Origin: Steroidobacteraceae bacterium
GTDB lineage: Bacteria > Pseudomonadota > Gammaproteobacteria > Steroidobacterales > Steroidobacteraceae
DNA: 64,000 bases
Direction of reading: 5' to 3'
Assembly: GCA_027531255.1 (NCBI GenBank)
Contig: JAPZRU010000005.1
Span: 124,001-188,000 of the forward strand
Shown here: positions 26,183 to 44,268 of the stretch, piece by piece
Layout: each line of letters begins with the position of its first letter
How positions within the stretch are numbered: the stretch's first letter is position 1
Notes under the pieces: generated by a model
Seen by the model: only the letters and a program-made list of their open reading frames with translations
Told to the model about the DNA's origin: nothing
Databases searched by the model: none
Position numbers and translations under genes: made by a program

Positions 26183-27519
26183 ACCGGGCCCGCGTCCTTA
26201 TCGTCGACGACGAACCGGATCTCTGCGAGCTGCTGTCGATCACCCTCGGCCGCATGCAGCTCGACTCGAGCGCCGTGCACACGCTGCGCGACGCCCGCGA
26301 GGCGCTGACGCAGGGCCGCTACGACGTCTGCCTCACCGACATGCAGCTGCCGGATGGCAACGGCCTGTCGCTCGTAGAGTGGATGCAGACGGCCGCGCCG
26401 GAAACGCCGGTCGCCGTGATCACCGCGCACGGCAACGTAGAATCGGCCGTGAAGTCGCTGAAGCTCGGTGCGTTCGACTTCGTCTCGAAGCCCCTCGATC
26501 TCGCGGACCTGCGCAAGCTGGTCGGCCAGGCCGTGAAACTGGCCGGACGCGACATCGGCGCCGAGACCGCCGTGATCACCGCACCGCGCCTGCTCGGGCG
26601 CTCGAAGGCGATGGACGACCTGCGCGAGATGATCGGCCGCGTCGCCCGTTCGCAGGCCCCGGTTCACATCGCGGGCGAGTCCGGCACCGGCAAGGAGCTG
26701 GTCGCCCATCTGATCCACGAGACCGGCGCCCGGCGCGACGGCCCGTTCGTGCCCGTGAACTGCGGCGCGATCCCGACCGAGCTGATGGAGAGCGAGCTGT
26801 TCGGCCACAGGCGCGGCAGCTTCACCGGCGCGGTCGCGGACAAGAAGGGCCTGATCCAGGCCGCCGAGGGCGGCACGCTGCTGCTCGACGAGGTCGCGGA
26901 CCTGCCGCTGCACATGCAGGTGAAGCTGCTGCGCGTGATCCAGGAGAAGGCGGTGCGGCCGGTCGGCGAGAGCCGCGAGGTGCCGGTCGACGTGCGCATC
27001 CTGTCCGCGACGCACAAGGATCTCGCCGCGCTGGTCGCGGAGGGGAAGTTCCGCGAGGACCTCTACTACCGCATCAACGTCATCGAGATGAAGGTGCCGC
27101 CGCTGCGGGCCAAGCTCGAGGACGTGCCGGACCTCGCGAAGGCGATCCTGGCGCGGCTCGCGAAGCGCTCGAAGACGGCGGTGCCGGAGATTGCGGCGGA
27201 CGCGATGCGGGTGCTGGCGACGTACCACTATCCCGGCAACGTGCGGGAACTGGAAAACATGCTGGAGCGCGCGCTGACGCTCTGCGTGGACGGGCGCATC
27301 ACGGCGGCGGACATCCAGGTGCGGCAGACGCCGGTGGCGGCGGTGGCGCCGGTGGACATCGGCGAGGGCGCGCTGGACGAGCAGGTCGAGCACATCGAGC
27401 GCGACGCGATCCTGAAGGCGCTCGAGCAGACCCGCTACAACAAGACGGCGGCGGCGAAGGTGCTGGGGATCACGTTCCGGGCGCTCAGGTACCGGATCAA
27501 GAAGCTGGGGATCGAGTAG
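26179..27519 (+). CDS. pilR: Sigma-54-dependent response regulator PilR
   Basis: Activates sigma-54 transcription of pilA. The 446-residue protein has an N-terminal receiver domain with acidic pocket Asp10-Asp11 and phosphorylation site Asp54 in LTDMQLPDGNG, an AAA+ domain with Walker A GESGTGKE (166-173) and the sigma-54 contact loop GSFTGA (213-218, a known variant of GAFTGA), and a Fis-type helix-turn-helix at the C-terminus (NKTAAAKVLGITFRALRYRI). The GTG start at 26179 overlaps the pilS stop by 4 bp. The likely target is pilA, 274 bp downstream, which has an exact sigma-54 site and an upstream repeat array. Confidence 0.96.
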   Translation: MNRARVLIVDDEPDLCELLSITLGRMQLDSSAVHTLRDAREALTQGRYDVCLTDMQLPDGNGLSLVEWMQTAAPETPVAVITAHGNVESAVKSLKLGAFDFVSKPLDLADLRKLVGQAVKLAGRDIGAETAVITAPRLLGRSKAMDDLREMIGRVARSQAPVHIAGESGTGKELVAHLIHETGARRDGPFVPVNCGAIPTELMESELFGHRRGSFTGAVADKKGLIQAAEGGTLLLDEVADLPLHMQVKLLRVIQEKAVRPVGESREVPVDVRILSATHKDLAALVAEGKFREDLYYRINVIEMKVPPLRAKLEDVPDLAKAILARLAKRSKTAVPEIAADAMRVLATYHYPGNVRELENMLERALTLCVDGRITAADIQVRQTPVAAVAPVDIGEGALDEQVEHIERDAILKALEQTRYNKTAAAKVLGITFRALRYRIKKLGIE

Positions 27520-27698: not shown

Positions 27699-27714
27699 TG
27701 GCACGGCGCTTGCT
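27699..27714 (+). promoter_or_regulatory. Sigma-54 promoter of pilA
   Basis: TGGCACGGCGCTTGCT matches the RpoN consensus TGGCACG-N4-TTGC(A/T) at every fixed position. It lies 78 bp before the pilA start and downstream of pilR, as in other pilSRA loci. Confidence 0.9.
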
Positions 27715-41556: not shown

Positions 41557-43796
41557 AGCGGCGGAGCTATCTCGAACTCGGCAAGCGCAACGTCTTCGGC
41601 AAGCCCCAGAAGAAGCCGATCGGACCGGTGGCACCGCCGCCGGATCCGCAGCAGGTGCCCGACTTCGATCTCGGCACCTGGCGCGTACGGCCGGCGCTCG
41701 CGCGGATGACGCGCGCGGACCGCCTCGTCGCCCTCGAGGAACTCGAACTGCGCACGCTGCTGTGCCTCGTCGAGGCGCCCCCGGAGGGCGTGAATCGCGA
41801 GGAACTGGCGCTCCGCGTGTTCGGCAAGGGCGAGAGCATCGACGAGCGCCTGAAGCGCATCCTGAGCTTCCTGCGCCGCGTGTTCTCGGAAGACGGCGCG
41901 GTGCGCATCGAGAACGCGCCCGGAGACGCGTATCGTCTCGTGGTCGGCGAGCCCGTGCGCTCCCGCCCGCCGGGCGCGTCCGGCGTGGCCGACGCGGAGG
42001 GTCTGTCGTCGACACCGCTGGATCGCGGGCTCGCCCCGGGTTCGCTCAAGCGCCGGCGCAAGGCCAGTTCGATCCTGATCGCGGGCGTGGTGGTCGCCGC
42101 GATCGGCACCGGCTTCTGGCTGCTGCTCGACGACGGTGGCAAGGTGCTCTACGGCCGCGTGACCGGCACCGCGTCGCTCGCGAACGCGCCGGGCCCCGAG
42201 CTCAGCCCGAGCTTCTCGCCCGACGCGCGCCAGGCGGTCTACAGCTGGCAGCGCGAGGGCACACGCGACGCGAAGCTGTACGTGCGTGGCGTCGGCGCCG
42301 CCGGTGGCGCGCCGCGCGCGCTGACCTCGGGCCCGGGCGAGGACATCAATCCCGCGTGGTCGCCGGCGGGCGGGCTGATCGCGTTCCAGCGCGTGGACGG
42401 CCCCCAGTGCGAGGTGTTCGTGATCGTACCGGACGGCACGGGCGAGCGGCGGATCGGCGAATGCAGCGCCGACGCCCTCGGGCCGCTGGCGTGGCGCCCC
42501 GACGGCAGCGCGGTGATCTACGCGTTCAGGACCGCGCCGGTGCTGCCGACCCAGCTCGTCGCGGTGACCCTCGCGGACCTCAAGATGACCGGCGTGACGA
42601 ACCCGGTGATCGGCATGCCCGGTGACTCGCAGCCGGAACTCGCGAGCACCGGACGTCGCCTCGCGTTCCAGCGCTCGCGCTCCGTCGGCGTAGCGGACCT
42701 GTCGATGATCGAGCTGTCGATCGGCGAGGTCGAGCGCGTCACGCGCGACGGCCTCGAGCTCTACGGCAGCACGTGGGAGCCCGGCGGCCGTTCGATCCTG
42801 TTCGCGAGCCCGCGCGGCGGGCGCGGCGAGATCTGGCGCACGCGCTTCGACGGCACGTTCGAGCTCGTCGTCGGCTCGCGCCGCGGCGACCTGCGCGCAC
42901 CGACGCTGTCGGGCGACGGCACGCGGCTCGCCTACGAACGCTGGAACGTGCAGACGCGCCTGCTCGCCGTGCCGCTGACCGCCGATCTCGAGCAGCCCCC
43001 GAGCCCGTGGCTCACACCCACCGCCTTCGACCGCGAGCCGCAGCTCTCGCCCGATCGCTCGCGCGTCGCGTTCGTCTCGGATCGCGACGGCCGGGACCAG
43101 CTGTGGATGGTCGAGTCCGCGCCCGACGCGGCCCCGCGCGTGCTGACGCGCTTCGACGTGGACGGCCTGCAGGCGCCGCGCTGGTCCCCCGACGGCCGGC
43201 GCCTCGTGGTCGCCGCCGCGCAGGGCGGTCGCTGGTCGCTGTGGCTCGTGGACGCGGCCGACGGCAGCGCGTCCCGGATCGACACCGGCGCGGCCAGCCA
43301 GGCCTTCGCGCCCAGCTTCTCGCGGGACGGGCGCTGGCTCTACTACGCCGCGGATTCGAGCGGGCGCTGGGAGATCTGGCGTCGCGAGTGGCCGGACGGG
43401 AGCGCCGCGCAGCAGCTCACGCAGGCGGGCGGGCTCGCGGCGCTCGAGTCGCGGGACGGCGAGTTCCTGTACTTCGTGCGGCCCGACCGCAACGGCCTGT
43501 GGCGGCGCTCGCGCGAGCCCGGCGGCGACGACCTGCTCGTCACCGGCGAACTCGCGGCGGCGGACTGGAACAACTGGTTCGTCACCGAGGACGGCGTCTA
43601 CTTCGTCGCGCGTCCCGACCGCGAGAACGCGCAGCTCGCGAAGTGGTCGCTGACCGAGGAAGCCGTGCAGCGGATCCGGCCGCTGCCGGGGCTGCTGCCG
43701 CGGTCGGGCCTCACGCTGAGCCCCGACGGGCGCGCGGTGCTGGCCACGCAGGTCGCGAAGACCGAGGTCGATCTGGAGGTCGCGACGCTCGAGTAA
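41553..43796 (+). CDS. Membrane-anchored winged-helix regulator with TolB-like propeller
   Basis: 747 residues in three parts. Residues 30-130 resemble the OmpR/CadC-type winged helix (FDLGTWRVRPALARMTRADR, LEELELRTLLCLVEAPPEG, ERLKRILSFLRRVF). A basic stretch RRRK precedes a single membrane helix (SSILIAGVVVAAIGTGFWLL, about 171-190). The rest, outside the membrane, is a series of TolB/PD40-like propeller repeats (SPSFSPDARQAVYSW, NPAWSPAGGLIAF, APRWSPDGRRLVV). Such ToxR/CadC-like proteins sense periplasmic signals and bind DNA directly. No peptidase residues are seen. The 4-bp overlap with the oligopeptidase suggests it controls that gene or senses its products; this is inference. Confidence 0.85.
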   Translation: MKRRSYLELGKRNVFGKPQKKPIGPVAPPPDPQQVPDFDLGTWRVRPALARMTRADRLVALEELELRTLLCLVEAPPEGVNREELALRVFGKGESIDERLKRILSFLRRVFSEDGAVRIENAPGDAYRLVVGEPVRSRPPGASGVADAEGLSSTPLDRGLAPGSLKRRRKASSILIAGVVVAAIGTGFWLLLDDGGKVLYGRVTGTASLANAPGPELSPSFSPDARQAVYSWQREGTRDAKLYVRGVGAAGGAPRALTSGPGEDINPAWSPAGGLIAFQRVDGPQCEVFVIVPDGTGERRIGECSADALGPLAWRPDGSAVIYAFRTAPVLPTQLVAVTLADLKMTGVTNPVIGMPGDSQPELASTGRRLAFQRSRSVGVADLSMIELSIGEVERVTRDGLELYGSTWEPGGRSILFASPRGGRGEIWRTRFDGTFELVVGSRRGDLRAPTLSGDGTRLAYERWNVQTRLLAVPLTADLEQPPSPWLTPTAFDREPQLSPDRSRVAFVSDRDGRDQLWMVESAPDAAPRVLTRFDVDGLQAPRWSPDGRRLVVAAAQGGRWSLWLVDAADGSASRIDTGAASQAFAPSFSRDGRWLYYAADSSGRWEIWRREWPDGSAAQQLTQAGGLAALESRDGEFLYFVRPDRNGLWRRSREPGGDDLLVTGELAAADWNNWFVTEDGVYFVARPDRENAQLAKWSLTEEAVQRIRPLPGLLPRSGLTLSPDGRAVLATQVAKTEVDLEVATLE

Positions 43797-43797
43797 C

Positions 43798-43842
43798 GGG
43801 GACGGTGCCCATCTCCGGAAAAGGGTCAGCCCCCTTTTCCGG
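43798..43842. repeat. GGGGAC and AAAAGGG palindromes after the regulator gene
   Basis: GGGGACGGTGCCCA (43798-43811) is followed by an exact 11-bp inverted repeat, CCGGAAAAGGG (43815-43825) and CCCTTTTCCGG (43832-43842) with a 6-nt loop. It begins two bases after the regulator stop codon and could act as its terminator. Confidence 0.65.
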
Positions 43843-43894
43843 GCGCCTTTCCGCCGTCGGACTTCTTTACGACTCGGATTCCGTCAAATCGCGC

Positions 43895-43940
43895 GATGCG
43901 ACGTAATCCGCCGCAACGCGCGCCCGGATGCGACGTAATC
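43895..43940. promoter_or_regulatory. Tandem 14-bp direct repeat, candidate activator sites
   Basis: GATGCGACGTAATC occurs exactly twice (43895-43908 and 43927-43940), starts 32 bp apart, about three helical turns. It ends 72 bp upstream of a consensus sigma-54 promoter, a typical enhancer position. The 7-bp core GACGTAA also occurs at 27541-27547 in the pilA upstream array. Confidence 0.6.
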
Positions 43941-44011
43941 AGGAAACGTGTGCGAACTGCGTCGCGGTTTCGCGGCGCCCGGGCGCCGCGGGGCGCCACC
44001 GACCGTGCGAG

Positions 44012-44027
44012 TGGCACGTGCGTTGCT
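44012..44027 (+). promoter_or_regulatory. Consensus sigma-54 promoter of the 57-residue gene
   Basis: TGGCACGTGCGTTGCT matches TGGCACG-N4-TTGC(A/T) exactly. It lies 48 bp before a start codon with a strong Shine-Dalgarno sequence and downstream of a tandem 14-bp repeat. Confidence 0.8.
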
Positions 44028-44074
44028 CCTTTTCCCTCCGCGGCGCGACCGGCGCCGAGTTCCGGAGGAATGCG

Positions 44075-44248
44075 ATGAGCGCCAAGGCTGTCGAACGTTA
44101 CCGACTGCGACTGTCCGACGTACCGGCGACCCGCGCCGCCGCGCGCGTCGATCGCCACGCCGCGATCACGCGCGAGCTCGGCACCTTCGCCAAGTATCAG
44201 GACTGGGCCGAGAAGCTGAAGGACAACTGGAAGGCCCCGGCGAAATGA
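44075..44248 (+). CDS. Small 57-residue protein of unknown function, sigma-54-controlled
   Basis: I do not recognise a family. The product starts MSAKAVERYRLRLSDVPATR and ends KLKDNWKAPAK; it has no Cys, no signal peptide and no membrane segment, and looks helical and slightly basic (alternating Arg/Lys and Asp/Glu). The Shine-Dalgarno GGAGGA (44064-44069) lies five bases before the ATG at 44075. Coding status is supported by the exact sigma-54 promoter 48 bp upstream, the Shine-Dalgarno, and termination just before a palindromic repeat shared with the convergent aldehyde dehydrogenase gene. A function in stress, nitrogen or surface physiology would be guesswork. Confidence 0.65.
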   Translation: MSAKAVERYRLRLSDVPATRAAARVDRHAAITRELGTFAKYQDWAEKLKDNWKAPAK

Positions 44249-44251
44249 CGA

Positions 44252-44268
44252 AAGGGGTCGGTCCCCTT
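44252..44268. repeat. AAGGGGTCGGTCCCCTT palindrome between convergent genes
   Basis: A 17-nt palindrome with 6-bp arms (AAGGGG/CCCCTT) lies between the stop of the 57-residue gene (44248) and the stop of the aldehyde dehydrogenase (44271), where it can form the same hairpin in both messages. Its core equals that at 20209. Confidence 0.65.

Follow-up and report, generated by a model that had tools for sequence, protein, structure and literature searches.

A predicted sigma-54-dependent extra copy of an order-wide small-protein gene in a Steroidobacteraceae genome

The window analysed here (the whole 64,000-nucleotide stretch of DNA from a Steroidobacteraceae bacterium) contains a 57-aa gene that, judged from its sequence, is an extra copy of a small-protein gene widespread in the order and has acquired a sigma-54 promoter. 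We consider it fairly probable that the locus forms a single-gene sigma-54 unit in which an NtrC-type activator acts from three upstream sites, S0 to S2, and that its product is a variant of the canonical protein for specific conditions. The family is called RHAAIT, a name coined in this analysis. The features of the locus and the canonical copy of the same genome, with its different promoter region, were read from the DNA as follows:

43877-43890, minus strand: putative activator site S0, GATTTGACGGAATC on the minus strand (GATTCCGTCAAATC on the plus strand), 11/14 match to S1
43895-43908, plus strand: putative activator site S1, GATGCGACGTAATC, exact copy; the genome has this 14-mer at no other locus
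43927-43940, plus strand: putative activator site S2, GATGCGACGTAATC, second exact copy, likewise confined to this locus
44012-44027, plus strand: sigma-54 promoter TGGCACGTGCGTTGCT, exact consensus, with the GG of -24 at 44013-44014 and the GC of -12 at 44025-44026
44064-44069, plus strand: Shine-Dalgarno sequence GGAGGA, 5 nt before the ATG
44075-44248, plus strand: 57-aa gene of the RHAAIT small-protein family, the second copy in this genome, with the core spanning residues 26-55 (profile E = 5e-16)
44252-44268, plus strand: REP-like inverted repeat AAGGGGTCGGTCCCCTT, just past the stop codon
C35:62560-62649, minus strand: canonical RHAAIT copy of the same genome (profile match)

The promoter and the sigma-54 system of the genome

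The promoter TGGCACGTGCGTTGCT matches 12/12 constrained positions with the correct -24/-12 spacing, and its position places the expected transcription start of the 57-aa gene near 44037-44038. Within the window, exact matches to TGGCACRNNNNTTGCW comprise this site and one more (27699, before pilA), with 0.02 expected by chance; the promoter scan detected no sigma-70 promoter at the 57-aa gene. Genome-wide, the exact pattern occurs 16 times versus once for the reversed control, and about one exact site is expected by chance in the whole genome. Both the pattern match and the genome-wide counts confirm the exact promoter claimed in the first-pass annotation.

Since RpoN is encoded in the genome (by a single rpoN) and the exact sites outnumber the control in this way, the promoter class is real in this bacterium. 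Transcription from sigma-54 promoters requires an ATP-hydrolysing activator, and a genome search identified about 11 activator genes with strong AAA+ domains. The genes behind exact sites include pilA, fliL and genes coding for a PEP-CTERM protein, proteins with BON and S30AE domains, an M48 peptidase and a lipoprotein, the last of these divergent from a short activator gene; pilA, fliL, the PEP-CTERM protein and this lipoprotein are typical of sigma-54 control. Sigma-54 sites in relatives were found before pilA, flgB and fliL-like genes.

The pilA promoter of the window (27699-27714) has pilR just upstream (about 26590-27090). The S30AE gene encodes an HPF/RaiA-like ribosome-associated protein and follows its exact promoter at L215:7743 (G000:C29:54742). 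An exact sigma-54 promoter precedes the PEP-CTERM protein gene, and the same genome encodes the PEP-CTERM response regulator PrsR (TIGR02915 above cut-off; L223, G000:C40:26977-27477, and L222:7009-7752). The short activator gene on C28 is flanked by two exact sigma-54 promoters (region L213:4480-10211). On one side lies the divergent lipoprotein gene, an arrangement that recurs in another genus (G011), while the other promoter precedes an operon of genes for a lipoprotein-type envelope protein, a YqjD-like and a holin-like protein, with otsAB-like genes nearby; the whole has the appearance of a module for envelope or osmotic stress, parts of which are conserved in other genera. Upstream of a flgB-like gene and of a sensor-kinase gene (L043 and L051), both with exact sigma-54 sites, stands the 18-bp near-palindrome CGCGTGACGCGGTTCACG, probably the site of a flagellar-type activator.

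Upstream sites and the search for their activator

The two exact copies of GATGCGACGTAATC reported in the first-pass annotation stand at 43895 and 43927, their starts 32 bp apart (about three helical turns), and 71 bp separate S2 from the promoter. The earlier count of two missed a third, inverted site, S0, at 43877-43890, whose reverse complement differs from GATGCGACGTAATC at 3/14 positions and which forms with S1 an imperfect palindrome (43875-43910, 86% in the repeat analysis). The idea put forward there, conditional expression through an activator bound to the repeats, retains its sigma-54 promoter, its real gene and its activator-like putative sites, with the number of sites corrected.

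Scanning the genome for further copies placed the exact 14-mer GATGCGACGTAATC at this locus and nowhere else. The pattern common to S0-S2, GATNNGACGNAATC, has exactly three occurrences in the 4.2 Mb genome, all at this locus, a descriptive count because the pattern was derived from the three sites themselves. All three end in a GAT-N8-ATC dyad, and dyad ends are a common look of NtrC-type activator sites. Such dyad motifs have been reported at sites of this type (PMC4641369). The locus thereby carries three repeated or dyad sites, one of them inverted, in the region 70-150 bp upstream. What makes these sites convincing is the third inverted copy, their uniqueness in the genome and their position upstream of an exact sigma-54 site.

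Upstream of the other 15 exact sigma-54 promoters the motif does not appear, the best matches there having at least 4 mismatches, as in background, so none of the sigma-54 activators of the genome could be tied to GATNNGACGNAATC. Nor was it found at other targets or near an activator gene; it occurs at this locus only. The best candidate, the C28 activator, was set aside: phylogenetic footprinting of its orthologues recovered sigma-54 sites without the GATNNGACGNAATC motif, and about one match like the 14-bp match AACTGCGTCGCGGT, shared by the window locus and the lipoprotein promoter beside that activator gene, is expected by chance by our own estimate over all promoter pairs. The fliL promoter of a relative (L264) has a one-mismatch site upstream, a weak lead given 29 promoters tested.

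The repeats could alternatively bind a repressor or an ordinary regulator, the activator of a genuine sigma-54 promoter acting from weaker, unrecognised sites or from solution. Some sigma-54 activators do work without a specific site, and the motif occurs at this promoter alone and could be linked to none of the activators of this genome. However, the position about 70-135 bp upstream, the helical phasing and the dyad-like ends all have the look of activator sites, and we regard this alternative as unlikely.

The RHAAIT family and its two copies

The 57-aa gene (57 codons, ATG at 44075, stop ending at 44248) and its GGAGGA were correctly described in the first-pass annotation, and conservation of the core in hundreds of genomes supports the frame as a real gene. 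It stands alone, with a TolB-like gene before it (same strand, ending at 43796) and an aldehyde dehydrogenase gene on the opposite strand, both named by eye from their translations; no activator gene adjoins it. The AAGGGGTCGGTCCCCTT repeat possibly marks the end of the transcript, and the terminator scan did not score it as an intrinsic terminator. REP-like inverted repeats of the form AAGGGGTC-NG-NCCCCTT have 9 matches in the window versus 0.09 expected, including those at 43820-43836, 44252-44268, 12122, 20212 and 23078, the first two of which flank the gene.

The product had been said to match no known family, which did not hold: its sequence includes RHAAITRxLYTWSSYKxWADKVxxSW, the core of a family of small proteins (57-87 residues). 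Searching related genomes, as had been proposed, proved productive. A single-sequence search detected the core in 17/40 genomes, in addition to the second copy in this genome, and the core profile matched in 229/296 genomes and 56/68 genera of the order, with a single genome outside it in a 369-genome sample of the class. Named matches belong to Steroidobacteraceae and other gammaproteobacterial metagenome assemblies, and a single-protein search of 84,980 named genomes returned no close relative of the window copy. No Pfam or NCBIfam model matches the product; the family is uncharacterised, widespread in the order and not found in these curated libraries. A PDB search of the product gave two insignificant matches only, and AlphaFold2 predicted three helices with modest confidence (pLDDT 71 overall, 76-85 in the core).

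Nearly every genome sampled contains a single copy; the assemblies behind the second matches in G157 and G286 have 6% contamination, and a further second match, in G097, is weak. At 53 of the 56 named loci whose flanks were long enough, a ParA-like gene (for a ParA/MinD-like ATPase) follows the canonical gene in convergent orientation. Of the canonical genes that could be tested, about 58, a box, TGTGANNCAGTTCCTG, precedes 53, mostly with CGTA or CTA some 20 bp further on; none of these loci has a sigma-54 match of at least 11/12 upstream. The box could be assigned to no known sigma factor or regulator (L027:7531-7821, L106-L168). Near the canonical gene lie htpG and a gene that, judged by eye, is ppnN-like and probably encodes a nucleosidase (L027, L030, L031, L106-L168). 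The canonical copy of this genome keeps both the box and the ParA neighbour, and the window copy has neither. Because the canonical copy, in relatives as in this genome, has a ParA neighbour and a different box, the window gene is a paralogue that acquired a sigma-54 promoter. The upstream alignment suggested in the first-pass annotation thus yielded another box in the canonical homologues instead of a near-consensus sigma-54 site; the sigma-54 arrangement is unseen in relatives because they do not have the extra copy. Relatives yielded neither a second copy behind a sigma-54 promoter nor, among the genomes sampled, an orthologue of the window copy with the same promoter.

That such a second copy was seen in no other of the family members sampled would also fit a decaying duplicate of little function, copied beside a pre-existing or chance sigma-54 site, as would the N-terminal part, shorter than and different from that of canonical proteins, and the REP-like repeats on both sides of the gene. 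Yet the window copy keeps all seven residues invariant among 15 sequences (R27, H28, A30, I31, L35, Y41 and W44), its Shine-Dalgarno sequence and -24/-12 boxes are perfect, and a chance exact site is expected about once per genome. We therefore judge such decay quite unlikely.

Proposed mechanism and comparison with known systems

Exact 14-mer direct repeats no more than about 60 bp apart occur at 4 places in 289 kb of the genome (about 1 per 70 kb); the S1/S2 pair alone is only mildly unusual, and the exact direct repeat is weaker evidence than the first-pass annotation took it to be. That the repeats arose by chance or as a by-product of duplication, with the activator of the promoter bound elsewhere, is nevertheless quite unlikely, given the third inverted copy (3 or fewer mismatches were reached in just 4/400 random 300-bp stretches of the genome) and the dissimilar flanks of S1 and S2, which speak against a recent tandem duplication.

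We infer activator binding, transcription and protein action as follows. The locus would be a sigma-54-dependent unit of one gene. Its product, an additional, lineage-specific copy of a small helical protein found across the order, would probably be made in response to a specific signal only. An NtrC-type ATPase activator would bind the three GATNNGACGNAATC sites as oligomers, about 70-135 bp upstream, and contact RNA polymerase-sigma-54 at 44012-44027 by DNA looping; with the signal present, transcription would start near 44037. The 57-aa product would then act as a condition-specific version of the canonical protein and, as the conserved core suggests, most likely bind the same partner. The first candidate for this partner is the ParA-like ATPase beside the canonical locus, a proposal drawn from a gene neighbourhood that the window copy does not share. 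A more far-reaching proposal, to which we give little probability, is that GATNNGACGNAATC would be the site of a new sigma-54 activator with a single target, a paralogue modulating an order-wide housekeeping-type ParA-associated small protein, which would amount to signal-dependent swapping of a small adaptor subunit.

The locus points to an uncharacterised small-protein family beside a ParA-like ATPase in most members of a bacterial order. With a second copy under predicted sigma-54 control in one genome, the pair would offer a direct handle on the function of the family, through the signal that switches on the second copy and the partner bound by both copies.

Among known systems, the Desulfovibrio vulgaris regulome has paired activator half-sites upstream of -24/-12 promoters (PMC4641369), and its NtrC-type systems resemble the present locus in site layout, whereas GATNNGACGNAATC was matched to no activator here. 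PEP-CTERM/PrsR sigma-54 regulons have been described (PMC9850573, PMC1569441), and this genome likewise has PrsR and an exact sigma-54 site before a PEP-CTERM gene; the window product differs in lacking a PEP-CTERM sorting signal, and the upstream motif is not common to both. The pilA promoter at 27699 is alike in its exact -24/-12 boxes, its small gene and the activator sites expected upstream, but has TGACGC-type upstream repeats and an adjacent activator gene, pilR, unlike the window gene. Closest is the canonical RHAAIT copy: in place of its convergent ParA-like gene and TGTGANNCAGTTCCTG...CGTA box, the window copy has a sigma-54 promoter, while both share the 30-residue core, the seven invariant residues, the small size and a position outside Pfam and NCBIfam families.
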